Positions 19,566 through 35,577 of a stretch of DNA of 37,200 bases are shown piece by piece (within the stretch, counting starts at the first letter, position 1; every line of letters starts with the position of its first letter). This DNA is from a virus. Where the stretch lies: positions 1 to 37,200 of the IMG/VR virus record IMGVR_UViG_3300027692_000006. One strand, 5' to 3'. The translations under genes and the position numbers were made by a program. Under the pieces are notes generated by a model that searched no databases, was not told the DNA's origin, and saw only the letters and a program-made list of their open reading frames with translations.

Positions 19566-19600
19566 TTTTCATAGCAGCGCGTTTCGTTCTAAAGCGCGGC

Positions 19601-19636
19601 GTTAATTTCCGTTAATTTCCGTTAATTTCCGTTAAC
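19601..19636. repeat. Tandem 10-bp repeats (GTTAATTTCC)
   Basis: Three exact, contiguous copies of GTTAATTTCC, followed by a partial copy that becomes GTTAAC. They lie about 120 bases upstream of the exported-protein gene. They could be binding sites for a regulator or a replication slippage product; no flanking gene overlaps them. Confidence 0.7.
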
Positions 19637-20854: not shown

Positions 20855-21285
20855 ATTATGGCATTGGTATAAAAAACACCCTTAATTGTCGCCTTGACGG
20901 TAGGATCTTGCCCATCGTACGGCCCCGGTGTTGGGCGTAACAGCGAGCAATTCACGAGCGTAATCGGCGGAAACACATGGGAATCAGGGTACACGGTAAC
21001 GGAGCCGAGGATTGCCTGCTGCTGCCATTGCGCGATGTATGCGGCTGCGATTGCTTGGCTCCGAAGCAAGTTGGCGGTCAAAGTTGCTAGTACGTACGGT
21101 TGCGGTGAATTCACGATTCCGGTCGCGGTTCCGATTTGGTCTACGGCGTCTTCGTCGAAATCGAGTTGCGCCATTGACTTCGCCATGAACGGAGCGGTGA
21201 GACTCAGTTGTGGAAAGCTTGTAACAACAACCGAGGTGATAACACGGTTTAAAATTCCCTGAATTGTCTGTGGGTTGAAGCTCAT
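20839..21285 (-). CDS. Tail tube protein
   Basis: A 148-residue protein directly after the sheath gene and before the chaperone. Its features (QTIQGILNRVITSVVV, DFDEDAVDQIGTATGIVNSPQPYVLATLTANLLRSQAIAAAYIAQWQQQ, TVYPDSHVFPPITLVNCSL) match the small tail tube proteins paired with DUF3383-type sheaths. ATG 21285 overlaps the sheath stop. The protein forms the rigid inner tube of the contractile tail. Confidence 0.8.
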   Translation of the reverse strand: MSFNPQTIQGILNRVITSVVVTSFPQLSLTAPFMAKSMAQLDFDEDAVDQIGTATGIVNSPQPYVLATLTANLLRSQAIAAAYIAQWQQQAILGSVTVYPDSHVFPPITLVNCSLLRPTPGPYDGQDPTVKATIKGVFYTNAIMWSSL

Positions 21286-22382
21286 GCGCCGCTCCCAAAA
21301 TCAAGCGCCGACAAATTGAAAGTTATCGACTCAAAGCCATACTGCGGCGTTACCGTCGCGCTCAAGCCGTTGTAAATACCTGCCGGATAATTCCCCGGAT
21401 TCTGCGCGATGTACGTCGCGAACGGCACGGCTGCGAACGTCGCGGCCTGCAAGAGCCCGTACGAAATGCCGGTGTTGCCGATGTCCACGAGAATCGCGAG
21501 CAAACGGTTTATGCCGTTTTGGTTGTAGTACAGCGGCGGGTTCTCGTTACTTCCGTCGATGATCGCGGCTGCGAGCTGCTGCTTCGCCTGGATCTGCACC
21601 CAATCGATCGCCCACCATCCCATCGCCTGCTCGCCGTCCATCGTCGTGCCGCGAAAGGAGGTCGCCGTTGAGATGCCGCCTTCGGCTCCGGTTCCGACGA
21701 TGTTCCCGTACGCGCTGAGAATCGAGGTTATCGTTGCGGCGTTGCCGGTCTGTACCCAGGGCGTGACGCCGTACAGGAAGCGGAATCCCATCGGGGGCTC
21801 CGGCGACGTCGCGGACGGGTTATTCGCCAACCATTGGTAGAAAAACGCTGCTGCCTGAAACTCGGTTCCCGCTGCGGTCTGGCTTGGAACTACGGCGAAG
21901 ATTGCTTTGGTCGTTATCGCGTACGCGCTTATCGTCGAAGATGTCGTCGTGACGAAGAAGTACGTCTTGCCCGTTGGACTTGAGTAGTTTGCTGCAAGCG
22001 TGTTGAGCGCAGCGCCGGAAGCGTCCCATGCTGCGGGGGTCAAATACGCATAAAAGATGCCGGGATTCGCTGCGATCCATGTCCCGAGCGCGGTTATGCC
22101 TGCGGACGATGAGCCTTCGACGCCGAGTTCCAGGACGTACAAGCCGACGGCGTTCCCCTGCGCGAAGAAGGTCGTCGCCATGTTGTCGATCTCTTGGTAG
22201 TTGCCGCTTGAGGACAGGGCCGCGACGACCGCGCCGATCGTCCCGTAGTACGTGTACGTGCCTACGGTCTGCGTCGTCCCGCCGACCGATACCAACGCGC
22301 CGGACTGCTGAAGCTGCGAGGGCGTCGGCGCGACGCTTACGATCGCATTGACTGTGACAATCTGCGATGTGACTACGGCCAC
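21282..22382 (-). CDS. Contractile tail sheath protein
   Basis: A 366-residue protein. The N-terminus (VTVNAIVSVAPTPSQLQQSGALVSVGGTT) and central VYVLELG-like strand (VGLYVLELGVEG), then AWDASGAAL and ISYGLLQAATFAAVPFATYIAQNPGNYPAGIYNG, agree with the compact sheath proteins of small myoviruses (DUF3383-like). It is followed by the tube gene as expected. It starts at GTG 22382. Sheath contraction drives the tube and spike through the host envelope. Confidence 0.8.
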   Translation of the reverse strand: MAVVTSQIVTVNAIVSVAPTPSQLQQSGALVSVGGTTQTVGTYTYYGTIGAVVAALSSSGNYQEIDNMATTFFAQGNAVGLYVLELGVEGSSSAGITALGTWIAANPGIFYAYLTPAAWDASGAALNTLAANYSSPTGKTYFFVTTTSSTISAYAITTKAIFAVVPSQTAAGTEFQAAAFFYQWLANNPSATSPEPPMGFRFLYGVTPWVQTGNAATITSILSAYGNIVGTGAEGGISTATSFRGTTMDGEQAMGWWAIDWVQIQAKQQLAAAIIDGSNENPPLYYNQNGINRLLAILVDIGNTGISYGLLQAATFAAVPFATYIAQNPGNYPAGIYNGLSATVTPQYGFESITFNLSALDFGSGA

Positions 22383-23254: not shown

Positions 23255-24142
23255 TCATCGTGGTGAGCATTCGTGCGGCGGCGTAATCGGCAACAGAATC
23301 CGCGTGATCGGGCTGATCGGCAGGCGGATGCAGACGACCTCTCCCATGTTCGCGGTGCCGTTGGCGGTTTGGGGTGCCTGCGTGGACGCACCGACGCCCG
23401 CGAAGGTTTGACCGATGCCGAATCCCGTTTGCGGTGCCTGCGTTGACGTTCCACGGGAAACGTAGGTGAGCGCGCCTGAGCCGCTCGCGGTTTGGGGCGC
23501 CTGCGTGGAAACGCCCACCGCCGCGTAAACGATATAGACATGACCGAGAGCCGTCTGCGGGGCTTGCGTCGATGCGCCCGTGCCCGTTACCGGAGGCCCG
23601 GTAACTACTCCAAAACCGAATCCATTCTGGGGATATTGCGTAGACGCGCCGGTAGCGCCGATTGTGAGTTTCCCGCTGCCCGAAGCCGGCTGAGGGGCCT
23701 GCGTGCTTACCCCGACGGCGACGATCTTGAGAAGGCCGCTGCCCGAAGCCGTCTGAGGGGCCTGCGTCGATGATCCGACGCCGCTTAATGGATGCCATGA
23801 GCCGGCTCCCGAAGACGTCTGCGGCGCTTGCGTTGACGCGCCGGAGGATGTCGGGCCAAAATCTCCGACGCCGGAAGACGTCTGCGCAGCCTGCGTGCTC
23901 GCTCCCGTGCCGGTGATCGTGAGCTTGCCGCTGCCGCTTGCCGTTTGCGGGGCCTGTACGCTCGCGCCCGGTCCCTTGATCGTGAGGAGGCCCGTGCCGG
24001 AAGCGGTCTGTGGCGCTTGCGTTGACGCGCCGACACCGGGGATGGTGAAAAATCCGCGACCGACGCCCATCTGTGGGGCCTGCGTGCTTGTGCCTCTCCC
24101 TGTCGAGGCCCCCGCCCCCGCGTTGAAAAACAGCACCAGCAT
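23255..24142 (-). CDS. Repetitive virion protein with twelve STQAPQT repeats
   Basis: A 295-residue protein made almost wholly of about 20-25-residue units with the core A-S-T-Q-A-P-Q-T-A-S-G-S-G, followed by a short beta-like segment (for example KLTITGTG). I count twelve copies; the eighth (STQYPQNGFG) and the first (STQAPQMG) are most diverged. The last 30 residues (CIRLPISPITRILLPITPP) differ and may anchor it. The pattern suggests an extended beta-solenoid or fibrous shaft. The same peptide occurs once in three other late proteins. No known enzyme domain is present, and the ribosome-binding site is weak. Confidence 0.7.
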   Translation of the reverse strand: MLVLFFNAGAGASTGRGTSTQAPQMGVGRGFFTIPGVGASTQAPQTASGTGLLTIKGPGASVQAPQTASGSGKLTITGTGASTQAAQTSSGVGDFGPTSSGASTQAPQTSSGAGSWHPLSGVGSSTQAPQTASGSGLLKIVAVGVSTQAPQPASGSGKLTIGATGASTQYPQNGFGFGVVTGPPVTGTGASTQAPQTALGHVYIVYAAVGVSTQAPQTASGSGALTYVSRGTSTQAPQTGFGIGQTFAGVGASTQAPQTANGTANMGEVVCIRLPISPITRILLPITPPHECSPR

Positions 24143-24205
24143 ACGTCTAGCTTACAGACTCACGAAGTTGGTTCTTCTCCCATGGAATAAAAGCAGGAGC
24201 AACAT

Positions 24206-25018
24206 TCACTGCGTTACCATTCCCGCTGCTATGATCGACGCGATTGCAGCGTAGCCTGCGGCGTTTGGGTGCCCGCCGCAGTCGCCGACAAATGGCGTAA
24301 GGCATGTCCCGGCGGGGTTGAAATCCGAAGCAGGCGGCAGTGTTGTCGGCGTCGGAAAGCTGCCGAGGTTGATAATGTTTCTCGCCGCGTTGCCGTACTG
24401 TCCGATCATCGAGAGCCACCAGGCGTTGATCGTGGGCGCGTTGGGGTTGCCAAAGCACACGTCTCCCGTGGTCACGGGATTGTTGGAACAATCAAACGGC
24501 TCCACGAGATACAGGTCCGCTTCGGGCGCGGCCTTCTTAATCGCCATGACCATTTGCAAATAGTATCCGGCGACGGCAGTCGGAGTTTCGGCGAACCCTT
24601 GCGGATTATACGCGGAGCTGGTCGTCGCCGTGAGCGAACCGTACTGCGTGATAAGCACCGGCTCGTCGTTAAGCCCGATCATCACGACCACGGCGGTTAC
24701 GGAGGGATCGATGAGCGGAACTGCGTTCATTAGAGCGTCGTAGGTTAGGCCGCCGCCTAACCCCAGATTTTGATACGAGGTGACGATGCCTGGCGGCAAC
24801 GCGGCGATGATCTGCGCGGGCAGGTCTTGGCATCCTGTCAATCCGGTAGCCGAAAGTTGCGATGTAGACATAAGCTGCGCGCGAGGATAACAGCGTGTTG
24901 CCACGCCTATTCCTTCCGTCCATGAGTCGCCGATGAAGGCAATACGCGATGGAATATTTGCCGTTGCTCTATTACTGATAAACGCAACAAGCGCACAGAT
25001 CATCATGAAAATGCGCAT
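24206..25018 (-). CDS. SGNH/GDSL hydrolase, exported or virion-associated esterase
   Basis: A 270-residue protein with a signal-like N-terminus (MRIFMMICALVAFISNRATA). Block I is FIGDSWTEG with Ser32, block II NLGLGGG near 84-90, block III GLND with Asn117, and block V has Asp246 and His250 (GDCGGHPN). The order and spacing fit SGNH esterases, though the last motif is D-x3-H rather than D-x2-H. In phages such enzymes often remove acetyl groups from surface polysaccharide at the tail tip. Its place in the adsorption gene cluster agrees. The signal peptide is odd for a virion part and may simply be a hydrophobic start. Confidence 0.8.
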   Translation of the reverse strand: MRIFMMICALVAFISNRATANIPSRIAFIGDSWTEGIGVATRCYPRAQLMSTSQLSATGLTGCQDLPAQIIAALPPGIVTSYQNLGLGGGLTYDALMNAVPLIDPSVTAVVVMIGLNDEPVLITQYGSLTATTSSAYNPQGFAETPTAVAGYYLQMVMAIKKAAPEADLYLVEPFDCSNNPVTTGDVCFGNPNAPTINAWWLSMIGQYGNAARNIINLGSFPTPTTLPPASDFNPAGTCLTPFVGDCGGHPNAAGYAAIASIIAAGMVTQ

Positions 25019-25389
25019 CAGCTTGCCGACTCGTATGTACCGCCGACGCCGATGCGAAACGTTGACATGAGAACATTTGTTCGCTGTGTTAGCCCTCCTA
25101 TGGCGTAAAACACGATGCCGGATGCAGAACTCACTACTGCTCCAAGCGAGGTACTCGATGTATTAAAACCGACTGCAATCGCTTGATTTATGGAATTATT
25201 ACTTAGAAACGGCAACGATATGGTTGCCGATGCAGTACTTGCCGTGGTTGGATATGTTACATCTATTGCAATGTAGACTAATCTCCCTATTTTCATATAG
25301 ATCGCACCGTTAATCGTTAGAGATAATCCCGCACCTGACGCATCTGCGGGAGTCCATGTTCCGATTAAAGGAGGAATCGTAAGCGGCAT
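25018..25389 (-). CDS. Small fibre-type protein
   Basis: A 123-residue beta-rich protein beginning with GTWTPADASGAGLSLTINGAIYMKIGRLVYIAIDVTYP. This follows the C-terminal receptor-tip pattern found on many phage fibres (GTWTP..SG...L). ATG 25389; its TGA overlaps the esterase ATG. It may form the tip of a fibre or be an accessory adhesion protein. Confidence 0.68.
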   Translation of the reverse strand: MPLTIPPLIGTWTPADASGAGLSLTINGAIYMKIGRLVYIAIDVTYPTTASTASATISLPFLSNNSINQAIAVGFNTSSTSLGAVVSSASGIVFYAIGGLTQRTNVLMSTFRIGVGGTYESAS

Positions 25390-25391
25390 AT

Positions 25392-26057
25392 TTAGTAACG
25401 CTCCGTGACGTTCAGATATGAACCATCTGCGGAAGTCGAAATGTAGTTATACGCTCCGGTATAGACCGTATAAATCTCAAGCGTCGCACCGGGCGGAACC
25501 GCGTAGGTAAATCCGCCGCTTGCGATTGAGGCCGCTGATCCTTCAGCGATATACGCCGTTGCCGTCGTGCTAGAATTATATACGACAAGCGCTTTGCGCG
25601 GCGGGCTTGTACGCGCCGCGCAAAGCGTCGCTGATGTCGCCGATGCCGTCTTCCCGGTCATCACGGTATTCGCGACAGGGCTTGTTGCGTATAGACTCCC
25701 GCCTGCGTCAATCGTTAGGATGCGGCCTTGCGTTACCGGATCGCCAATGCCGACGATCTGTCGATTCACATTCGCGACGACGTTGTATGTCCCGGTATGC
25801 GCATTAGCGAAAAACGCAGTGACTGCCGTTCCGCTTACGACCGCCACCTGCTGCGTTTCGGTAGCGAAACCCGTATCGAATGTGAGCCACATGCCGACAA
25901 CAATCCCCGTTCCCGATGCAACGGTGATCGTCTGTGAGCTTCCCGCCGTGACGTTCGTTGAGCTTGTCGTCGCGATTGCAGCGAAAATAATCGTATCGAC
26001 GATCTGCGCCGTCGATCCGGTGGTTTCGTTGACAGGGGCTCCTCCTTCGACCGCCAT
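25392..26057 (-). CDS. Virion/fibre-associated protein
   Basis: A 221-residue protein with an N-terminal beta domain (TTSSTNVTAGSSQTITVASGTGIVVGMWLTFD), then a middle region containing HTGTYNVVANVN and RILTIDAGGSLYATSPVANTV, and a C-terminal small beta sandwich (KALVVYNSSTTATAYIAEGS, YAVPPGATLEIYTVYTG) like capsid- or fibre-decorating domains. AGAGGG lies before ATG 26057. The function is inferred only from position. Confidence 0.65.
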   Translation of the reverse strand: MAVEGGAPVNETTGSTAQIVDTIIFAAIATTSSTNVTAGSSQTITVASGTGIVVGMWLTFDTGFATETQQVAVVSGTAVTAFFANAHTGTYNVVANVNRQIVGIGDPVTQGRILTIDAGGSLYATSPVANTVMTGKTASATSATLCAARTSPPRKALVVYNSSTTATAYIAEGSAASIASGGFTYAVPPGATLEIYTVYTGAYNYISTSADGSYLNVTERY

Positions 26058-26068
26058 ACGTTATCCCT

Positions 26069-26473
26069 CTAGGTCTCCACAACCGTATGTGCATAGCTCG
26101 TGCAAGATACCAAGCCGCCCGTTACGATTGAGACGGTATTGAGATTGAGCGCCGCACCGGATGTGCCGACTTGCTCGTCGAGCACGACCGTGGTTCCGTT
26201 GCTCTCGTAGAATCGCGCGAAGGTCGCCGTGCCGGTTGCAACCGCTGTCCCAGAGGTGATCGCGTTTGCCGTGATAACGCCCGATGCGGCAGATCCGAAG
26301 GCGGTCGAGCCGAACGTCAGGGTAGCAAGCAGCGTGTTACCGGAGAGCGCGGTGTTCGCGTTTACGGGCTGCGTGCCGGAGAAAATCTGGATTGTTCCGT
26401 TATTGAGCAGCGGCGCGAGCGCGTTCGCTTCGGCATTCGCTGCAACGTCCGAGAGGTTGACTACGGTGCTAAT
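26069..26473 (-). CDS. Small virion protein with apparent ATT start
   Basis: No ATG, GTG or TTG start can be found for this obvious coding stretch. ATT at 26471-26473 lies 6 bases after AAGGAGG and gives a 134-residue protein: STVVNLSDVAANAEANALAPLLNNGTIQIFSG, then TQPVNANTALSGNTLLATLTFGSTAFG and TARFYESNG-like segments. This resembles small phage virion proteins I know by pattern. It lies between the giant fibre and the 221-residue protein. Length, start and context make coding likely despite the rare start. Confidence 0.72.
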   Translation of the reverse strand: MSTVVNLSDVAANAEANALAPLLNNGTIQIFSGTQPVNANTALSGNTLLATLTFGSTAFGSAASGVITANAITSGTAVATGTATFARFYESNGTTVVLDEQVGTSGAALNLNTVSIVTGGLVSCTSYAHTVVET

Positions 26474-26484
26474 GGTATGCCTCC

Positions 26485-29400
26485 TTACTCTTCGTCGAGC
26501 GGGTCGGGTTCTAAAACCGGCGGGAAAAAGACCGAGCCCGGCGGCGACGTGAATATGAGGCCGGTCGGAAGAAGTAGTTCAAGCTGAAGACTCCACTCTC
26601 CGCCGATCGAGAATTCTTCGGCGACCTCGCGGTAGACGGCGGTCAAGCCGTCATTGAAGATAGCAACCGGCGTGAGGCGCAGTTTCTCGCCCTGCGCATC
26701 GAAGGGGCCGGGGACGGCGATGAGCGTAGCTATCGCGCCTGCCGCGTCGTAGCCGCCGAGGTCGATAGTGATCGCGCGTCCGAGGCCAAGGTCCTCAATG
26801 ACGGAAAAACCTATCGCGGTTTGCGGTGCCTGCGTGCTCGCGCCGATCCCGATAATGCGCGGGATGGTTCGGACAAAATCAATCCAGGAAGCAACCGTAT
26901 CCGAGATGCCGCGCGGGAGGCGGAGGATGCGCCCGAGCGCTTCCCCCCATGATCCGAGGATATCAGATGCGCTGCGCGAGGCAGCTACCGTACGCGTGAG
27001 GGATTCTGTGGGAGCCGCGAACGTGTCAGACGCCGAGCGTGAGAAGCCTTGCGTTTTGCTCGCCGAATCAGTCCATCCGGCTGATGTGTCCGAGATCGCG
27101 CGCGACGATCCTGAGCGTTTTGTTAGCGTTTCGGCCCATCCGACAAGCGTATCTGTGCAGAATCGTGCAAAGTTTTGCCCCTTTGAGATCGTTTCGCTCC
27201 AATTCGTGAACGCATCCGCTGCCGTTCGGGAGAATGCCATCGGCGCGCGAGAGATCGAATCGCTCCAAGAAGAGAGCGTATCGGAGGCAGTGAGAAAGTA
27301 TGCCTTCCCAGTTGAAGCGATGTCCGACCAGGCCGTGAACGTATCGGACATCGATCGCGGGAGGCGAACGCTACGCGCGAGCGTATCCAACCATCCCGAG
27401 ACGATATCGCTTGCCGTACGCGCAAAGGCGACGGCGCGAGAGATCGAATCCGACCATGCGGCCGTGGTATCGCTTGCCGTGCGCGTCAATGCCATTGGCG
27501 AGCGAGAGATCGAATCGGAGAAGCTCGCAGTCGTATCCGCCGCAATGCGAGGCAACGAAACGGCTTTCGATACCATATCCAACCATGACGCAGTAGTATC
27601 ACTCGCGGATCGCCCTAGCGCAATAGATCGCGAAGCGGAGTCAGACCATGCTGCCGGTGAATCCGATGCCATCCGCGTAAACGCTTGTGGCGAACGCGCA
27701 AGGGTATCCGACCAAACGGCAGGCACATCTGAAGCGTTGCGCGGCAGAGAGACTATCCTTCCGGCGGAGTCTGTTATCGCCGCTAGGTTATCCGTCGCAG
27801 TGCGCGTGAACGGTATTGCCCCGCGCGTTGCCGTATCGCTCCATCCCACAAGCGTATCGGACGAGGCGCGCGGCAGATTCACAAGGCGCGAGAGAACGTC
27901 CGTAAACACTGCCGTGGTATCGCTTATCGCACGAGGCAGCGAAACCACGCGCGCAAGAGAATCCGACCAGACGGCGGGAGAATCCGACAATGTTCGCGTG
28001 AAGGATTGGACTTTTGAAAGCGTCTCTGCCCACGCGGACGTGGTATCGCTCGCGGTGCGCGACAAAGAGACGTTCGTCGCGACAGAATCGGTGATCGCGG
28101 AGAAACTATCCGAGAATATGCGTGGCAGACTGATAAGGCGCGAGAGGGAGTCCGTAAATGATGACATGCTATCGGATGTCGTCCGCGTGAAAGAGACCGA
28201 TCGCGTTAGGCTGTCGGTGATCGCGCTGAATGAATCGGTCGCCGTGACGACGTTAGCTGTGCCTGTTGAAGGTGCAAGTAGCGCTATAATGCTTAATTTA
28301 CGAGTGCTTGATGTGCCCTTATTCGACGCTGAAATAGCAGTAGCTGTGTCTCCCGTTGGAGATGCCTGATAGACTTCTTGGCAAGAATATGAGGTACTTG
28401 TTGCCGTCGTTCCTATTGTCCACGTAGCAGTTGAAAACTGGCCTGATCCTTGTCCATTGAAGAGATTTGACCAGCTTGTAACAATACCGCTGAATGCGGC
28501 GATTGGCTGCGTTCTAAATACCGTTGGAGTCACGGACCCTGTATTGAGTACTGCGCTTGTGCCCGTCGTTGCGGCACTTCCGTTTATGCCGGATGCTCCC
28601 GTGAGAACGCCGCTGTATTCATAGCCGGTTGCATCTCCGACGGCGACAGACGTTGAAAGCGTCCATGTATACGTGCTAGGTTCTGACCCGCCGGCATCTT
28701 TCCACCATAACTCAAGTGCATCTGTTGAATACTCGCTTTTTGCAAGAGTCCATCCCGTAGGTCCGGTGCTTGCTATGGCATTTGCGCCTTGAGCTACAAA
28801 AGCGATGAGTTTATTTCCGCTTGTCGGCGTCGATCCATACGTGAGAACTAATGACGTAGACGCAGTAGACGTTCCGCTCCCTGTTTGCACTTTTGCAATA
28901 GCCGTAAATGGCGGCTGCAAAAATAACAGATACCAAAGATAATCTGTCCCCGCTTTTAATTTTCCACTTGCGTATGTATAGGTAACTGATACGCTTTGAC
29001 TAAGCGTTGTTAATGGTCCTGATGCAGTTGTTTGCTCTGAACGAAACGTCGTTTGCGAGGAGTCCCCCATCTGACTCCAACTTGTACTGAATGATGCAGG
29101 CGCTCCGGGAGTCGTTTGACTCGTACCGCTTGCATCAAATGCCAATACCGACAATGGAAATAAATTAGCGGATAACGCAGTAAGAGACTGACTAACAACA
29201 GTCGTAGGAGTTCCTGATATGGTTCCTACGGAATTATTAGCCGTTGCAATCGGGTATGTTGTACTCGTCCCTGAAACTTCGATAATCTCGCCAAAAATTG
29301 AAGCCCCAGATCCTACCGGAGCATAGGACCAATTAAAACTCGTTGACGTTGTGCCGGTTCTCCAATAAAAATAACCGAGGATAATATCTCCGTTTGTAGG

Positions 29401-29619
29401 CCCGGCATTCCCTTGCATTCCATAAAATGTCCATCCTGACGGGGGAGTAATTGGAGGCGGGGGAGTTGTACTTCCTCCAAAATCCGTTACCGATATAAGT
29501 GCGATAAGAACGTTCGAGCTTGACGGAGCCGTTCCAAGAGTAGTCGTTAGATTTAACGTCGTATTGGTTGCAGTTGATGCAGAAACACTTGTTCCCGCTT
29601 GAACTAACGCAATCGCCAT
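26485..29619 (-). CDS. Long tail fibre with 21-residue tandem repeats
   Basis: A 1044-residue protein. Residues 1-460 hold two similar beta-sandwich domains (each with SSSNVLIALIS or SGNKLIAFVA, then PSGWTF or TGWTLAKSEYS, then a GEIIEVSG or GYEYSGV strand). Residues 461-905 are about 21 tandem 21-residue repeats (consensus SDTxxxWSDSLSRxVxLPRxA). Then come one GASTQAPQTA peptide near 927 and a C-terminal domain of about 100 residues (ITIDLGGYDAAGAIATLIAVPG, FTSPPGSVFFP) like the separate 31011-31307 protein. It is probably a host-binding side or tail fibre. ATG 29619 has GGTGG upstream. Confidence 0.8.
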   Translation of the reverse strand: MAIALVQAGTSVSASTATNTTLNLTTTLGTAPSSSNVLIALISVTDFGGSTTPPPPITPPSGWTFYGMQGNAGPTNGDIILGYFYWRTGTTSTSFNWSYAPVGSGASIFGEIIEVSGTSTTYPIATANNSVGTISGTPTTVVSQSLTALSANLFPLSVLAFDASGTSQTTPGAPASFSTSWSQMGDSSQTTFRSEQTTASGPLTTLSQSVSVTYTYASGKLKAGTDYLWYLLFLQPPFTAIAKVQTGSGTSTASTSLVLTYGSTPTSGNKLIAFVAQGANAIASTGPTGWTLAKSEYSTDALELWWKDAGGSEPSTYTWTLSTSVAVGDATGYEYSGVLTGASGINGSAATTGTSAVLNTGSVTPTVFRTQPIAAFSGIVTSWSNLFNGQGSGQFSTATWTIGTTATSTSYSCQEVYQASPTGDTATAISASNKGTSSTRKLSIIALLAPSTGTANVVTATDSFSAITDSLTRSVSFTRTTSDSMSSFTDSLSRLISLPRIFSDSFSAITDSVATNVSLSRTASDTTSAWAETLSKVQSFTRTLSDSPAVWSDSLARVVSLPRAISDTTAVFTDVLSRLVNLPRASSDTLVGWSDTATRGAIPFTRTATDNLAAITDSAGRIVSLPRNASDVPAVWSDTLARSPQAFTRMASDSPAAWSDSASRSIALGRSASDTTASWLDMVSKAVSLPRIAADTTASFSDSISRSPMALTRTASDTTAAWSDSISRAVAFARTASDIVSGWLDTLARSVRLPRSMSDTFTAWSDIASTGKAYFLTASDTLSSWSDSISRAPMAFSRTAADAFTNWSETISKGQNFARFCTDTLVGWAETLTKRSGSSRAISDTSAGWTDSASKTQGFSRSASDTFAAPTESLTRTVAASRSASDILGSWGEALGRILRLPRGISDTVASWIDFVRTIPRIIGIGASTQAPQTAIGFSVIEDLGLGRAITIDLGGYDAAGAIATLIAVPGPFDAQGEKLRLTPVAIFNDGLTAVYREVAEEFSIGGEWSLQLELLLPTGLIFTSPPGSVFFPPVLEPDPLDEE
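26905..28239 (-). repeat. 63-bp-period coding repeats of the long fibre
   Basis: The DNA encodes about 21 direct repeats of 21 codons (four units have 22). Conserved positions are Ser/Ala-Asp at the start, an aromatic at position 7 (usually Trp), Asp/Glu at 9, Ser/Thr at 10 and Arg near 13 and 19. DNA identity between units is much lower than the protein pattern, so the array is old and under selection. Confidence 0.85.
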
Positions 29620-29684
29620 TTAAAACCACCGAGAAGGCGCATCGTTCGTCGATGCAACGAGTGCGCCTGTATACATGGGATTGC

Positions 29685-29930
29685 TTAGGCTTGTTTTTCG
29701 ACCGCAGGCGTCACATGCGCGGTAAGCTCGTCCTTGGGCGCATCGTCTCCCTGTTTCCAGGTTTTCGCGCCGCCGCGAAGCGACCCGTGGTCGATGCGGA
29801 TGTTATGCACGGTATGCCCGAGCGCCGCAAAGCGTTCGGCAATCGACGAGAGCAATGTCCGATGCGTTTGGTTGAGATCAGTTTCTTGCGTCGGCGTGGA
29901 TTCGACGGTGATCTTGTAAGGGTCAGGCAT
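29685..29930 (-). CDS. Small virion-cluster protein
   Basis: An 81-residue protein with AGAGGA 5 bases before ATG 29930. It contains QTHRTLLSSIAERFAALGHTVHNIRIDHGSLRGG and a charged C-terminus. No family is recognised. A hairpin (GCATCG, loop, CGATGC at 29639-29655) lies in the gap before the fibre gene. It could be a chaperone for the large fibre; this is inference from position. Confidence 0.6.
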   Translation of the reverse strand: MPDPYKITVESTPTQETDLNQTHRTLLSSIAERFAALGHTVHNIRIDHGSLRGGAKTWKQGDDAPKDELTAHVTPAVEKQA

Positions 29931-29954
29931 ATCGTTCCTCTTTCCTAAATATTT

Positions 29955-30989
29955 CTAAACAGTAATCGTCCATGTGAGAGCGATCGTATCCCCAGACGAA
30001 TTCACCGTCGCAGTCGCGCTCAAAAGCGTTTCGAGAATGAGAAGCGATCCTGCTGCGGCCTTGCTATTGCAGAGCACGGCTTTCGCGATTGCAACGCTCG
30101 ATGATCCCGTATACGTCCATGTATAGGCAAGCGCAGACTGCGTACTACCGGGAAGCGTCGCTTGCACGTATGCGCGCGATAGCCCGTTTGTCGTTTGCTC
30201 CGTGGCCGCTGCGCTCGTCGTTCCGTCCGCGAATAGTCCGTCTGCCGTACGTAGCACGTCGCCCGCTGCCGCTGCGGCGGAATTGGTCGAGAGCCCGATC
30301 CATCCGGCGATCCCCGCACCGGGGCAAATGGAATAGATCGCCGTGCTTGCGGGAGTTGAGCCCGCCGCACCCGTCGCGCTGCTCTGTGAGGTCCACTGAT
30401 CTACGGTTAAAATCGTGGCCGTGTTACTCACAATGACGCCGTACACGCCTGCGGCGGGGCAATACACAACATGCCCCGGAAGTCCCGTATTTACGCCGCC
30501 GGTCGTCGGAAACGCCGCGCCGGAGTTTGTTAGGGTGGTTGCGGAAGTCGCCGTCGCTGTTCCGGTTACACCCGTGTAACTCGTGGAATTCGCCGTAATA
30601 TCGCCAAAGCACAAGCCGCGCAACCACTGATTGATTCCCATCGTGACTTGGAGATTGTGCGTGCGCCGAATCTGCGTGATCGCGGGAGCCCATTTTGGAT
30701 CATCAAAATTTACTCGCTCCCCGCGAAAGCGCCAATGTGCGCGATCGACATTTCCGATATCGTCGAGAATATGATCCTTGAGCATGCGCGCACCGAGCTT
30801 CTCCATTTTCAAGCCCTCGAATACGCGGACCTCAACGGGGTTCTTGACGCGCGTATACCCGCTCCAAAAGCTTTTTCGGTCGAGCACACCGCGCGACATG
30901 AGCGCTACGTCCTCGCGGATATTTTCCATGCCGCTGCGTAGCTGTTTCCCATTCCCGCCCCAGGGCGCAAGCGCGTCGATCATGCTCAT
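29955..30989 (-). CDS. Minor virion protein
   Basis: A 344-residue protein. The N-terminal 120 residues are mixed (RKSFWSGYTRVKNPVEVRVFEGLKMEKLGARMLKDHILDDIGN) and the rest is a Thr/Ala/Gly-rich beta region (GLPGHVVYCPAAGVYGVIVSNTATILTVDQWTS). It ends with a strand set (AYTWTYTGSSSVAIAKAVLC). The composition fits a fibre-base or receptor-side protein. AGGAGG is 12 bases before ATG 30989, longer than optimal. No named family. Confidence 0.65.
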   Translation of the reverse strand: MSMIDALAPWGGNGKQLRSGMENIREDVALMSRGVLDRKSFWSGYTRVKNPVEVRVFEGLKMEKLGARMLKDHILDDIGNVDRAHWRFRGERVNFDDPKWAPAITQIRRTHNLQVTMGINQWLRGLCFGDITANSTSYTGVTGTATATSATTLTNSGAAFPTTGGVNTGLPGHVVYCPAAGVYGVIVSNTATILTVDQWTSQSSATGAAGSTPASTAIYSICPGAGIAGWIGLSTNSAAAAAGDVLRTADGLFADGTTSAAATEQTTNGLSRAYVQATLPGSTQSALAYTWTYTGSSSVAIAKAVLCNSKAAAGSLLILETLLSATATVNSSGDTIALTWTITV

Positions 30990-31010
30990 GTCAGGGTTCT
31001 TCCTCCTAGG

Positions 31011-31307
31011 CTAGGCGATTCGCGGAAACACATACAAATATCCAGGCGGCGAGGTGATCGTTTGGCCGTCTGGAGTCTGTACTTGGAGTTCCAGCGTCCA
31101 AAGCCCGCTCGTCGTGAAGTCGTTCCCGTTCTGCGTGTACGCTCCGCTGAGACCGTCTTCGGAGACGACAACCGGCGAGAATGTGGTTCCCCGGCCCAGG
31201 AGCTTCTTCCATCGGCCAGGCGCCGCGAGAAGGGTGCAGGTTGAGCCGGTCAGGCTGTAGCCTCCGGCGTCAATCTGGAGGACGGGGCCGATATCGAACT
31301 GCGTCAT
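31011..31307 (-). CDS. Stand-alone beta-sandwich domain (BppU N-terminal-like)
   Basis: A 98-residue protein resembling the last 100 residues of the 1044-residue fibre: LQIDAGGY against ITIDLGGY, TLLAAPG against TLIAVPG, VSEDGLSGAY against IFNDGLTAVY, and TITSPPGYLYVFP against FTSPPGSVFFP. The layout recalls baseplate-upper-protein N-terminal (BppU_N) Ig-like domains, tentatively. ATG 31307 overlaps the upstream gene. A docking role for a fibre on the baseplate is inference. Confidence 0.68.
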   Translation of the reverse strand: MTQFDIGPVLQIDAGGYSLTGSTCTLLAAPGRWKKLLGRGTTFSPVVVSEDGLSGAYTQNGNDFTTSGLWTLELQVQTPDGQTITSPPGYLYVFPRIA

Positions 31308-32365
31308 TCGTACACGCTTCCCACTCCCAAAGCCGTCTGCTCCGCCTGCGTGCTCGCCCCTGTCCCGGTCGGCGTCACGCCGCCGATGACCTCGATACTC
31401 GAAAGCATGGCGGAGAGAATGAGCCTGCGGGCTACCGCGTCTGCCGTACCTTGGAGGTAGTTGGCGCTGATATGCAGAGTTTTCTTTTGCGCCAAGAGGG
31501 TCAGTTCCGATTGGGTTTGCTTCTCATCTCGGAGCACGGGAGAATTGGCGAATCCGAACGGTGCGGTCCCGTCCCTGCTGGCCTCGATGAGCGATACCCA
31601 ATACTGCCATGCGGCATCGTTCGAGAAGCCGTAAAGGGTGAGCGTCACCTCGTCCCGACATAATTGCGAAGACGCGAGGTCGTGGAACGGGGATGCGCCG
31701 GAATTCAGGACGATGGTCCCCGGCCACGGCCCGATGACGGGGAACGCCCCGAGCGCCTCCGTCTCGCTTGGTTCGATGTGGACGGCGATATACGGAGGGG
31801 CGAGATTATCAGGAATTGCGAATGAAGGCGCGACAATTACAGATTGCCCATTTAATGAATTCTGCGCGAGCCATATCGGCAGGCTATTGCTTACGATAGG
31901 CCCTGCGGGAAGATCGGCAGGCGAATTCAGTATCTGCGTGCTCATGACGGGCAATAGCGCCACGCCGGAATAATGCCAGGTGTCCGCTTGCCGGAAATAC
32001 GCTGCTTGATGCGAGAAGGCCACGCGCAACGGCGGCGCTCCCTCGATAGGCCACGAACCTATCCACATGGCGTCAGGCGATACTGTGCTTAATTGCGTGA
32101 CTTCAGATTCCGAACTAAAAATCACGTCCGTAATCGCAGTTGTCGCCGTCTCTCCCTGTTCTCTGTCCGTTGCATAGTGCAGAGATCCTTGGGCGACCAT
32201 GACCGCGCCGGTACGCACCCAAAACACGAAGCCGTCCTGCGAAAGAACGAACTTTTTATAGCGAGCAAACTCTACTTTTTGGTATGCCGAGAGTTGATTG
32301 AGACCAGAGAAAAGCGCAGCCTCGATTTGAGACTGTTGGCCGCTTGCCTCAACTGCGCTTGGCAC
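31304..32365 (-). CDS. Virion protein ending in a STQAEQT peptide
   Basis: A 353-residue protein starting at GTG 32365 (TAGTG with the upstream stop). It has a helical N-terminus (QIEAALFSGLNQLSAYQKVEFARYKKFVLS), FVFWVRTGAVMVAQGSLHYATDREQGET, and a beta-rich body. The final 20 residues contain GTGASTQAEQTALGVGS, the same peptide as in the 23255-24142 protein. A body domain near 230-300 (TLTLYGFSNDAAWQYWVSLIEAS) is distinctive. It is probably a capsid- or tail-attached structural protein. Confidence 0.68.
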   Translation of the reverse strand: MPSAVEASGQQSQIEAALFSGLNQLSAYQKVEFARYKKFVLSQDGFVFWVRTGAVMVAQGSLHYATDREQGETATTAITDVIFSSESEVTQLSTVSPDAMWIGSWPIEGAPPLRVAFSHQAAYFRQADTWHYSGVALLPVMSTQILNSPADLPAGPIVSNSLPIWLAQNSLNGQSVIVAPSFAIPDNLAPPYIAVHIEPSETEALGAFPVIGPWPGTIVLNSGASPFHDLASSQLCRDEVTLTLYGFSNDAAWQYWVSLIEASRDGTAPFGFANSPVLRDEKQTQSELTLLAQKKTLHISANYLQGTADAVARRLILSAMLSSIEVIGGVTPTGTGASTQAEQTALGVGSVYE

Positions 32366-32877
32366 TACGTCTTACTTACCCACGAACGCATTGACGCGAC
32401 ATAGAGGCCGGTATCGACAAACGCAACTCTCGCCTTATTCTTCTTCGCATAGGGCCGCTTGAAACGATGATTCACTCCGCTTGCCGCCGCTTGGGAGATC
32501 GGCGCACCCGTAAGCGCGAGACTCAGCTTCTGCATTTCATTGGAGAAGATGAACTTGCGGAAGTCGCGCTCGATCTTTTGATCTGCGCCGTATGTTAGTG
32601 ACGAACGCTCATAGCTCTCGCTGATATTGTGGAACTTATTCGAGAAGTTCGCGACCTTGCTGCCTGCAATGCCTTTGCCCTTAATGATGCGCTCTAGCGA
32701 ACGGGACATATCTTCCGCGAGATAGTCCGCTATCGAATGCTTACGCGAATCATAGAAGATTTCCATTATGTGGTAGCGAGATTCTAATTTTTCGGCAACG
32801 GTCCCCGTATCTGTATTTCCGTTTCCGCTCGCGTCTGAATAATTTACGACTAAGACCCCCAAGTGTAAGGTTGCCAC
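32365..32877 (-). CDS. Head-tail connector or tail completion protein
   Basis: A 170-residue protein from GTG 32877, directly after TAA. It is helical and basic in the middle (RYHIMEIFYDSRKHSIADYLAEDMSRSLERI). The C-terminal half has RKFIFSNEMQKLSLALTGAPISQAA and FVDTGLYVASMRSWV, a pattern like the tail completion or neck proteins of other tailed phages (VDTG..y..s...W). It lies in the neck gene region between capsid and tail genes, which supports the guess. Confidence 0.66.
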   Translation of the reverse strand: MATLHLGVLVVNYSDASGNGNTDTGTVAEKLESRYHIMEIFYDSRKHSIADYLAEDMSRSLERIIKGKGIAGSKVANFSNKFHNISESYERSSLTYGADQKIERDFRKFIFSNEMQKLSLALTGAPISQAAASGVNHRFKRPYAKKNKARVAFVDTGLYVASMRSWVSKT

Positions 32878-33021
32878 TTAGCGCCTCTCTTTCCCCGTGC
32901 AACGCATATTCTCGCAATGATACGAGCGCATGAGATACTCACCATCGCCGCTGTCATTTTGTACCCATTCATTACGCTCGCACATGATGGATACGCAAAA
33001 TGGGCAAAATGGAGGAATCAT
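32878..33021 (-). CDS. Tiny zinc-ribbon protein
   Basis: A 47-residue product from ATG 33021 (TAATG overlap with the upstream gene, AAGGA 9 bases before). CPFC near residue 6 and HCENMRC near residue 36 form a four-cysteine ribbon. A longer frame from 33060 would add an out-of-place N-terminus and is not preferred. Its place among head genes is curious; the function is unknown. Confidence 0.65.
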   Translation of the reverse strand: MIPPFCPFCVSIMCERNEWVQNDSGDGEYLMRSYHCENMRCTGKERR

Positions 33022-33248
33022 TACGATAAATCCTTGAGGGCTTCCAAGCGTTCTATCCATTCTGTTGAGGACTTGAAGATCAATCGCTTTCCGCCGTCGT
33101 ATTCATTTAACAATATGGCGTAGTGTGATTGAATCCTTACAGATTCATCCAACGCCTCACGTAAACGCGCGACCTCAATTTCCGGCTCCTCGTTCGGAGG
33201 ATTGGGAGAGATGCTAGTCCCCGTAATCGTGACACTGCGCTTGCTCAT
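33021..33248 (-). CDS. Small acidic helical protein
   Basis: A 75-residue protein from ATG 33248, overlapping the upstream stop. The N-terminus is polar (SKRSVTITGTSISPNPPNEEPE), then a long helix follows (IEVARLREALDESVRIQSHYAILLNEY). It may be a small head accessory or chaperone; no family. Confidence 0.62.
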   Translation of the reverse strand: MSKRSVTITGTSISPNPPNEEPEIEVARLREALDESVRIQSHYAILLNEYDGGKRLIFKSSTEWIERLEALKDLS

Positions 33249-33370
33249 TACGGCACGCGCCCGCCGCCTATGAGGCGAAAGATCGCGTTTGCAATCCCGA
33301 AGCCAAGCGCGAACGCGAACCCGACGAGCACGTCGTCAAAGAATCCGTGCAGGCTGAAAGCTGATTCCAT
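33248..33370 (-). CDS. Tiny membrane protein
   Basis: A 40-residue frame from ATG 33370, 1 base after the TGA of the upstream gene, ending in TAA that overlaps the next ATG. Residues 10-33 are hydrophobic (FFDDVLVGFAFALGFGIANAIF), one transmembrane segment, followed by Arg and Gly. Small size and coupling resemble small holin-like or accessory membrane peptides, but a lysis role is unproven. Confidence 0.6.
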   Translation of the reverse strand: MESAFSLHGFFDDVLVGFAFALGFGIANAIFRLIGGGRVP

Positions 33371-33371
33371 G

Positions 33372-33965
33372 TCAGGTTAACCCCCAAACGGTCGGCCCGT
33401 ACTTCTGATTGTACGACAAATAATAGCGTCCCCAGGGAGTTTTCATAAAGTCGAGTTGATCGATGGTGAGCCCCTTCGCCCAATCCGGGGAAGCGAGGGT
33501 CGAGCTTGTGGTCACGTCGGACGATGCTGCGACAAGGCCGGTAGATGGATTCACGAGTGAGTAACCGCTATTCGCTCGCGCCGCGGTAAAGAAGTTCTGT
33601 CCCGGCTGATCGGGTGCGATTCCCATAAGAAGATGCGTGGCGCAATTGTACACGGCAAGCGTGTAACTAATACCACCCCATAGGTTACGCGGCAGGGGCG
33701 CGCTGCAATCCGCATATGTCGCCCCGTACGGTAGTCCACGATCGCACAGCACAAGTTCTAGCGCCTGCCAGAGCGCATACTGCGGATAGGGCGAGGAAGC
33801 GGGAAGCGCAGCCTCCGGGATGGAGACGTTGGTTTGCAACCACCAAGTAAAATCTATCAGGTTAGGTCGGTACGGCCATAGGAAGCCGATCGTGGGCGTC
33901 TCTGCACCGATCCCGTTCGCGGTCTGTTCGGCCTGCGTGCTCGCGCCGGTGCCGGTGACGCTCAC
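33372..33965 (-). CDS. Head completion/adaptor protein with N-terminal STQAEQT peptide
   Basis: A 197-residue protein from GTG 33965 (TAAGTG). Residues 4-18 are TGTGASTQAEQTANG, the shared peptide. The rest (FTWWLQTNVSIPEAALPASSPYPQYALWQALELVL, YTLAVYNCATHLLMGIAPDQPGQNFF, LDFMKTPWGRYYLSYNQKYGPTVWGLT) matches by pattern a structural family found next to capsid genes in contractile-tailed phages, probably a head-tail adaptor. The peptide precedes the recognisable domain and looks added. Confidence 0.68.
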   Translation of the reverse strand: MSVTGTGASTQAEQTANGIGAETPTIGFLWPYRPNLIDFTWWLQTNVSIPEAALPASSPYPQYALWQALELVLCDRGLPYGATYADCSAPLPRNLWGGISYTLAVYNCATHLLMGIAPDQPGQNFFTAARANSGYSLVNPSTGLVAASSDVTTSSTLASPDWAKGLTIDQLDFMKTPWGRYYLSYNQKYGPTVWGLT

Positions 33966-34560: not shown

Positions 34561-35577
34561 CTAATACGGCAGCGAAAGTATATTCACGGCGTTGCTTCTC
34601 GGTGCCCAACCGGACGTTATCCGCTGCATGCTCACCACGTCGAGCCCTTCGGGAATCGGCGTTGTGATTTCAATGGGCGCGGCGACGTTCGTGTACTGGA
34701 GAATCATCGCATCCGTCGTCGGCGAAAGCTTCGCGAATTCGTTCGTATTGATGCCCGGAATGCTCGGAACAACGGCTTCCGGAACGAGGAGAAGCACGGC
34801 GTCCGTACCGCCGGCGCCCTTGCCGATCAAGGTATCGTCGTACGCCCAATCAATCGTGACATCGTTTTCATCGCTGATCTTGGAGACGACTTGCCCGGTT
34901 GTCGCCGTACCCGCGCCGGGACGCTGGTAGGACGTAACCTGTACGATATCTTGCCATTGCAGCGTACCGATGATGCGCTGCGGCCCGAGCAGAACCGCGC
35001 GTCCCGGCATGCCCAGGCGGAACATGGACTGGAGCGCGGCCTGAATCTGCGCGTTAAACCATATCGCTAACTGCCCCGCATCGTACGTGCGAAGGGTCGT
35101 ATCGCCGAACGTATCGGGGGGCAGCGTTACCGCCGTCGCATTCGGGGTATTGATGATGCCTTCGCTGTTCGATGCATTCACGCCGTAGATGAATGCCGCG
35201 CGGATGAACTGGTTAATACCCTGCCGCGCCGCAAGCCGATACGCCGCAGGTAAGGCGACGTTATACTCGCCCGCATCGGCAACGTCTAACTCGTTGTAAT
35301 CCTGCCTCGTACGAATGAGGTAGGTGAGCGTTTGAATGTAATCGAGCGTGATCGTCGCGGACGGCAGCACGTTCGCTGCGGCCTGCTGCGCGGCGACGGC
35401 GGTGCGTACGTCTACATGGTTTTGATAGACGACCTTATCGTTATCGCTGAGAAGCTGCCGAAGCTTCTTGCCGCCCAAGCCCTGCGCGAAGCCGGAAGGC
35501 TGCGCGATCGTGATAATAAGGTTCGGCTCGATGCGATTCGGATGAACGAGGACGCGGGCCGGTGCAATTACTGGCAT
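34561..35577 (-). CDS. Major capsid protein (DUF2184 family)
   Basis: A 338-residue HK97-fold capsid protein of the DUF2184 group. It has LIRTRQDYNELDVADAGEYNVALPAAYRLAARQGINQFI near the centre, GRAVLLGPQRIIGTLQW, DVTIDWAYDDTLIGKG, AVLLLVPEAVVPSIPGINTNEFAKLSPTTDAMI, and the usual C-terminal EGLDVVSMQRITSGW. This order agrees with capsid proteins of contractile-tail phages with a separate maturation protein upstream. A terminator follows. The expected start is ATG 35577; AGGAG is 12 bases upstream. Confidence 0.86.
   Translation of the reverse strand: MPVIAPARVLVHPNRIEPNLIITIAQPSGFAQGLGGKKLRQLLSDNDKVVYQNHVDVRTAVAAQQAAANVLPSATITLDYIQTLTYLIRTRQDYNELDVADAGEYNVALPAAYRLAARQGINQFIRAAFIYGVNASNSEGIINTPNATAVTLPPDTFGDTTLRTYDAGQLAIWFNAQIQAALQSMFRLGMPGRAVLLGPQRIIGTLQWQDIVQVTSYQRPGAGTATTGQVVSKISDENDVTIDWAYDDTLIGKGAGGTDAVLLLVPEAVVPSIPGINTNEFAKLSPTTDAMILQYTNVAAPIEITTPIPEGLDVVSMQRITSGWAPRSNAVNILSLPY

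Follow-up and report, generated by a model that had tools for sequence, protein, structure and literature searches.

Background

Small modules are often reused by phages as decorations of the particle, and the well-described modules of this kind are whole domains. Decorating modules shared by neck and tail proteins have a precedent in the 936 lactococcal phages, in which one class of CBMs recurs on the neck, the tail and the Dit (PMC6669499). Tandem tail-associated repeats have one in the BACON repeats of crAss-like phages, which have undergone duplication and copy-number change (PMC6949934), and Anabaena phage A-1(L) bears a repetitive bead-chain fibre, gp80-82, at its neck (PMC10966104).

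The locus described here resembles each of these systems. It lies in a 37.2 kb IMG/VR virus record (called the window below, meaning the whole stretch analysed) from an uncultured contractile-tailed phage (myophage). While the 936-phage CBMs are folded domains, two of them with tested binding, the repeated units here have 21 residues. The BACON domain is larger than the unit and the Pfam scan gave no sequence relation between them; indeed, the unit matches no curated CBM, Ig-like or BACON model. The likeness to A-1(L) concerns repetition, which here is due to tandem units but in that phage to a series of about 14 individual trimers of a single protein; its neck fibres are the nearest structural precedent for a possible self-docking.

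A 21-residue unit in four proteins

The unit has the consensus G-T-G-A-S-T-Q-A-P-Q-T-A-S-G-x-G-x5, is rich in Ala, Gly, Ser and Thr, and is nearly invariant at its Q-x-x-Q and G positions. The window contains 12 copies in the gene at 23255-24142 (P0001) and one copy each in the fibre P0002 and in P0003 and P0004. The copies are tandem in P0001, at an internal junction in P0002, C-terminal in P0003 and N-terminal in P0004; all four genes are on the minus strand, and their coordinates agree with those of the original prediction.

The array protein P0001 (295 aa; 23255..24142, minus strand) consists of twelve units and a conserved C-terminal tail. The array (23336..24100, minus strand) has unit spacings of 21, 21, 21, 21, 22, 21, 21, 24, 21, 21 and 20 residues, with an autocorrelation peak at lag 21, and an HMM of the unit, built from a set including these copies, detects 12 domains (E 3.9e-74). 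The tail (23258..23350, minus strand) reads NMGEVVC[IV]RLPI..ITRI.L.ITPPH.C and is retained in both close relatives, G001 and G005, regardless of copy number.

The original prediction had defined a 13-residue core recurring in the four proteins. The recurrence was found again, but the real repeat has 21 residues, and just three of the 12 array units (those with Q at residues 42, 193 and 255) match the strict core ASTQA(P/E)QTAxG exactly, the others deviating as SVQAPQTA, STQAAQTS, STQYPQNG and so on. With the looser core S[TV]Q[AY][PEA]Q, we obtained 12, 1, 1 and 1 matches in the four ORFs and zero in the other ORFs of the window. When all ORFs of the window were shuffled, this pattern gave 0.017 matches per shuffle and was placed in three or more ORFs in none of 300 shuffles; sharing of the unit by chance is excluded. 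No other extended peptide is common to real genes of the window.

Two further features were noticed in the window. A GDSL-type lipase/acylhydrolase gene (24206-25018, minus strand; PF13472, E 1.1e-12) adjoins the array gene, and its product is possibly a virion or host-surface enzyme. Besides, perfect short DNA tandem repeats with 24-bp and 10-bp units are found at 2414-2479 and 19600-19635.

Carrier genes and their context

The minus-strand structural genes of the window comprise those for capsid (34561-35577), head-tail-region, fibre, sheath (21282-22382), tape-measure-sized, baseplate hub and wedge proteins. Judging from synteny with the capsid, sheath and baseplate genes, the unit carriers are probably virion proteins. 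All features in this section are on the minus strand.

P0002 is a long fibre-like protein (1044 aa; 26485..29619), whose shaft (residues 477-921; 26857..28191) is made of 21 repeats of 21 residues with the pattern RTASDTxxxWSDSxSRxxx (SD repeat). The period is identical to that of the unit described above (Q-unit), while profile comparison finds no similarity between the two. The single Q-unit (26788..26850; Q at residue 930) stands at the junction of the SD shaft and the C-terminal domain (26488..26787). This domain, which may be Ig/BppU_N-like, belongs to the same family as the gene 31011-31307, and structure comparison of it yielded weak hints only. The gene downstream of P0002 (26072..26488) is common to G001 and G005, and this shared neighbour shows that P0002, P0007 and P0005 occupy one locus.

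P0003 (31304..32365), a neck/tail-region protein, belongs to phrog_6359, a phrog without assigned function. Its single C-terminal unit (31307..31366) ends with GTGASTQAEQTALGVGSVYE-stop and sits inside an extension of about 26 aa that is missing from Shewanella phage QDWS. The next gene (31011..31307) encodes the C-terminal domain of the fibre on its own and overlaps the P0003 stop (ATGA); RNA structure at this overlap is nothing special (z -1.06). A unit followed by the same domain is thus seen at two places, within P0002 and across the P0003 stop and the 31011-31307 start. P0004 (33372..33965), a head-tail-region protein of phrog_6356, also without assigned function, has its single unit near the N-terminus (33891..33953; residues 5-20), and the orthologues of L048, L050 and QDWS are without it.

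Gain and loss of units among relatives

The comparison covered the window and five related contigs, all uncultured. In G001 (IMGVR_UViG_3300044822_000145), the unit is found in the same four genes with one copy each, and the array gene is reduced to 50 codons, i.e., one unit and the conserved tail NMGEVVCIRLPI. In this genome, P0003 is separated from the gene for the stand-alone domain by an inserted HNH-endonuclease-like gene (L013:2206-2898). G005 (IMGVR_UViG_3300044838_000066) carries the P0004 unit and a degenerate P0003 unit, and its P0001 orthologue (P0006) has 17 units, so that the copy number of the array gene across the close relatives is 1 (G001), 12 (window) and 17 (G005). Three genomes have an almost identical P0004 unit.

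The fibre of G005 (P0005) has 11 Q-units, then the P0002 C-terminal domain, then the same downstream gene. These 11 Q-units stand where the window P0002 has its 21 SD repeats; therefore, two different 21-residue repeats fill the same shaft position. Moreover, a baseplate-region tail protein of G005 (phrog_8212) contains two units in an N-terminal extension that is missing in the orthologues of the window, G001 and Shewanella phage QDWS. A second short peptide, RATQVSAFL, occurs twice at the N-terminus of the G005 baseplate-region protein (L037:11151-12032).

Homologues of P0003 are encoded at 39 IMG/VR loci; of these, only G001, G005 (degenerate), L047 and L050 show C-terminal units, and the other homologues terminate before the unit position. 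N-terminal P0004 units are present in G000, G001, G005 and L047, while L048, L050 and the remaining orthologues have none. The matches in L047 are weak (E 0.014), and the P0004 unit there was read by eye. L048 has a 7-unit array gene, with the unit on neither P0003 nor P0004, and L050 has a 3-unit array gene together with a unit on P0003, not P0004. The three Q-units of a 388-aa L050 protein (L050:10480-11643) are preceded by a long Ala/Ser/Thr/Lys-rich repeat, which is possibly another shaft type.

The description of the unit as a detachable module is supported by these data, since orthologues differ in whether they carry it at a given N- or C-terminal site, and it appears on an extra tail protein in one relative. 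Because units come and go independently at each site, one obligatory docking or plug-and-socket pair is argued against, and this gain and loss site by site favours a general surface or shaft brick.

A wider family of 21-residue repeats

A degenerate DNA pattern for TQAxxTLxAxG, chosen for its likeness to other phage repeats, returned 57 stretches from IMG/VR. About 19 of the 57 encode arrays with 21-residue spacing, corresponding to about 15 distinct arrays after near-duplicates were merged. These arrays reach 26 units with exact 21-residue spacing, come from unrelated phages, and have sheath, tape measure, terminase, portal, scaffold and head genes as neighbours. Profile-profile comparison of this family with the window-clade units gave scores of 40.4 and 35.0, in register, against maxima of 18.6 and 21.0 in two sets of 100 column-permuted controls; an unrelated domain scored 19.7. 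A family HMM built without the window array matches P0005 (E 1e-4 to 6e-4) but not the window array; it was built from units chosen with T-[LVI], which is missing in the window units, and is biased against that array. As there is no direct HMM match, the window array joins the family through the profile-profile comparison and P0005.

By profile, the unit is thus assigned to a wider 21-residue "TQAxxTLxAxG" phage family. The family arrays and the window units are alike in the 21-residue period and in the register of G, Q and xAxG. They differ after the turn, where the family has T-[LVI] and the window clade Q-T-A or Q-R-V, and in distribution: the family arrays mostly occupy a single ORF (one per contig, with two in one case), whereas the window clade spreads its units over several genes.

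Neither the unit nor the repeat is covered by a Pfam or NCBIfam model. A lone 12-residue Pfam motif match in L114 appears to be a repeat artefact. The wider family has a weak match to phrog_38872, which has no assigned function, and our literature search found no paper on a 21-residue repeat of this kind. Novelty had been suggested for the peptide, and it does fall outside the curated models; the repeat of which it is a local variant, however, is present in many other phages.

Searches outside the relatives gave little. When the phage collection was searched with the arrays by tblastn, the only match was a weak one in a Salinibacter phage, and the low-complexity filter makes this result uninformative. 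Unit profiles run on up to 385 genomes of the Xanthobacteraceae class and on 274 genomes of the Paraburkholderia class, both without a positive control, produced only spurious matches in other frames, and the wide profile had no match over 240 genomes, again without such a control. Eleven exact DNA matches in GTDB genomes were rejected, as their surroundings are unrelated and contain no repeat. Foldseek searches of PDB and BFVD returned no significant match, and PDB profile searches with the unit, the C-terminal domain, P0003 and P0004 returned nothing.

Constraint and predicted structure

The 15 copies share 76% identity in amino acids and 67% in nucleotides. At identical residues, the same codon is used at a rate of 0.45, compared with 0.33 expected from codon usage, and Tandem Repeats Finder did not report the P0001 array, whose DNA is too diverged. 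The copies have thus retained the peptide although their synonymous codons are almost random, which places the constraint at the level of the protein rather than the DNA; they are of old origin, and selection acts on the peptide. Between phages, pN/pS of the units is about 0.2-0.3, as in the neighbouring parts (small numbers), i.e., purifying selection on the units is as strong as in the adjoining folded parts.

AlphaFold, run with shallow alignments, predicted that each unit of the window array forms three short strands (pLDDT 56) and each unit of P0005 one 9-residue and one 5-residue strand (pLDDT 64-77 over residues 10-135). At this low to moderate confidence, the unit is likely beta-structured. 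The original prediction of a beta structure is consistent with the regular strands, though the models lend it weak support.

Proposed function of the unit

We regard it as somewhat probable that the unit is a beta-forming brick of 21 residues, bolted onto surfaces or shafts singly or in arrays, which builds or decorates the particle. Each unit would form two or three short beta strands, and the repeats would stack into a rod. The P0001 array would make an appendage or decoration for which the conserved C-terminal tail serves as the anchor on the particle, while single units on neck-region proteins would be displayed in several copies through oligomerisation. Such a brick could be grafted onto exposed protein termini and amplified into arrays, serving as a low-affinity surface, adhesion and reach element with strength tuned by copy number. 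By analogy with the CBM-decorated 936 phages, the BACON repeats and the Ig-like modules on other phages, a role in adhesion or reach is likely. We infer function here throughout from sequence facts, namely a protein-level repeat that belongs to a family, changes in copy number, is independently added to and removed from protein ends, and replaces another shaft.

Other explanations start from the same data. The dispersal of copies among several genes, their varying number between relatives, and the HNH-endonuclease-like gene after the P0003 unit in G001 could be read as traces of a short DNA sequence, recombining or mobile, by which tail genes are spread or shuffled, with the peptide as a by-product; yet nucleotide identity among copies is below amino acid identity, synonymous positions are close to randomised and the array escaped Tandem Repeats Finder, which largely refutes this reading and makes it highly improbable. 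A low-complexity spacer that is neutral or disordered, and kept for nothing more than solubility or flexibility, would fit the Ala/Gly/Ser/Thr-rich composition, the terminal sites and the low AlphaFold confidence for the window array. We consider a spacer quite unlikely, given the strict 21-residue register, the scarcely varying Q-x-x-Q and G positions, purifying selection equal to that of neighbouring folded parts, strands predicted in every unit, and the replacement of another 21-residue shaft by Q-units at the same place.

Like-with-like docking is the remaining alternative: the P0003 and P0004 units, sitting on rings of the neck region, would pair edge-to-edge with array and fibre units, forming a plug that anchors fibres to the neck. 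The placement of the single units, on neck-region proteins and at the junction in the fibre, agrees with it, as do the near identity of the P0004 unit in three genomes and the neck-anchored beaded fibres of Anabaena phage A-1(L) (PMC10966104). It is rather unlikely nonetheless, for L048 has its 7-unit array without units on P0003 or P0004, L050 has the unit on P0003 but not on P0004, the P0003 unit is degenerate in G005 though this genome has the most units, and the wider-family arrays occupy one ORF per contig with one exception. The original proposal that the peptide ties fibres and neck together or binds a single partner is not supported, given the independent variation of sites and the nearly always single-ORF arrays of the wider family. 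A related and likewise unlikely reading is a self-recognising beta "sticker" of neck, fibre and array, in which units of the neck ring would seed or cap a rod of the same units, building both the fibre and its attachment site.

With the bolt-on brick as the preferred reading, the shared element appears to be only 21 residues long, standing alone at a protein end or in long arrays. The unit is small and easily tested, and its family occurs in many uncultured phages. Once the repeat is named, many "hypothetical" phage proteins could be recognised as proteins of appendages or decorations.
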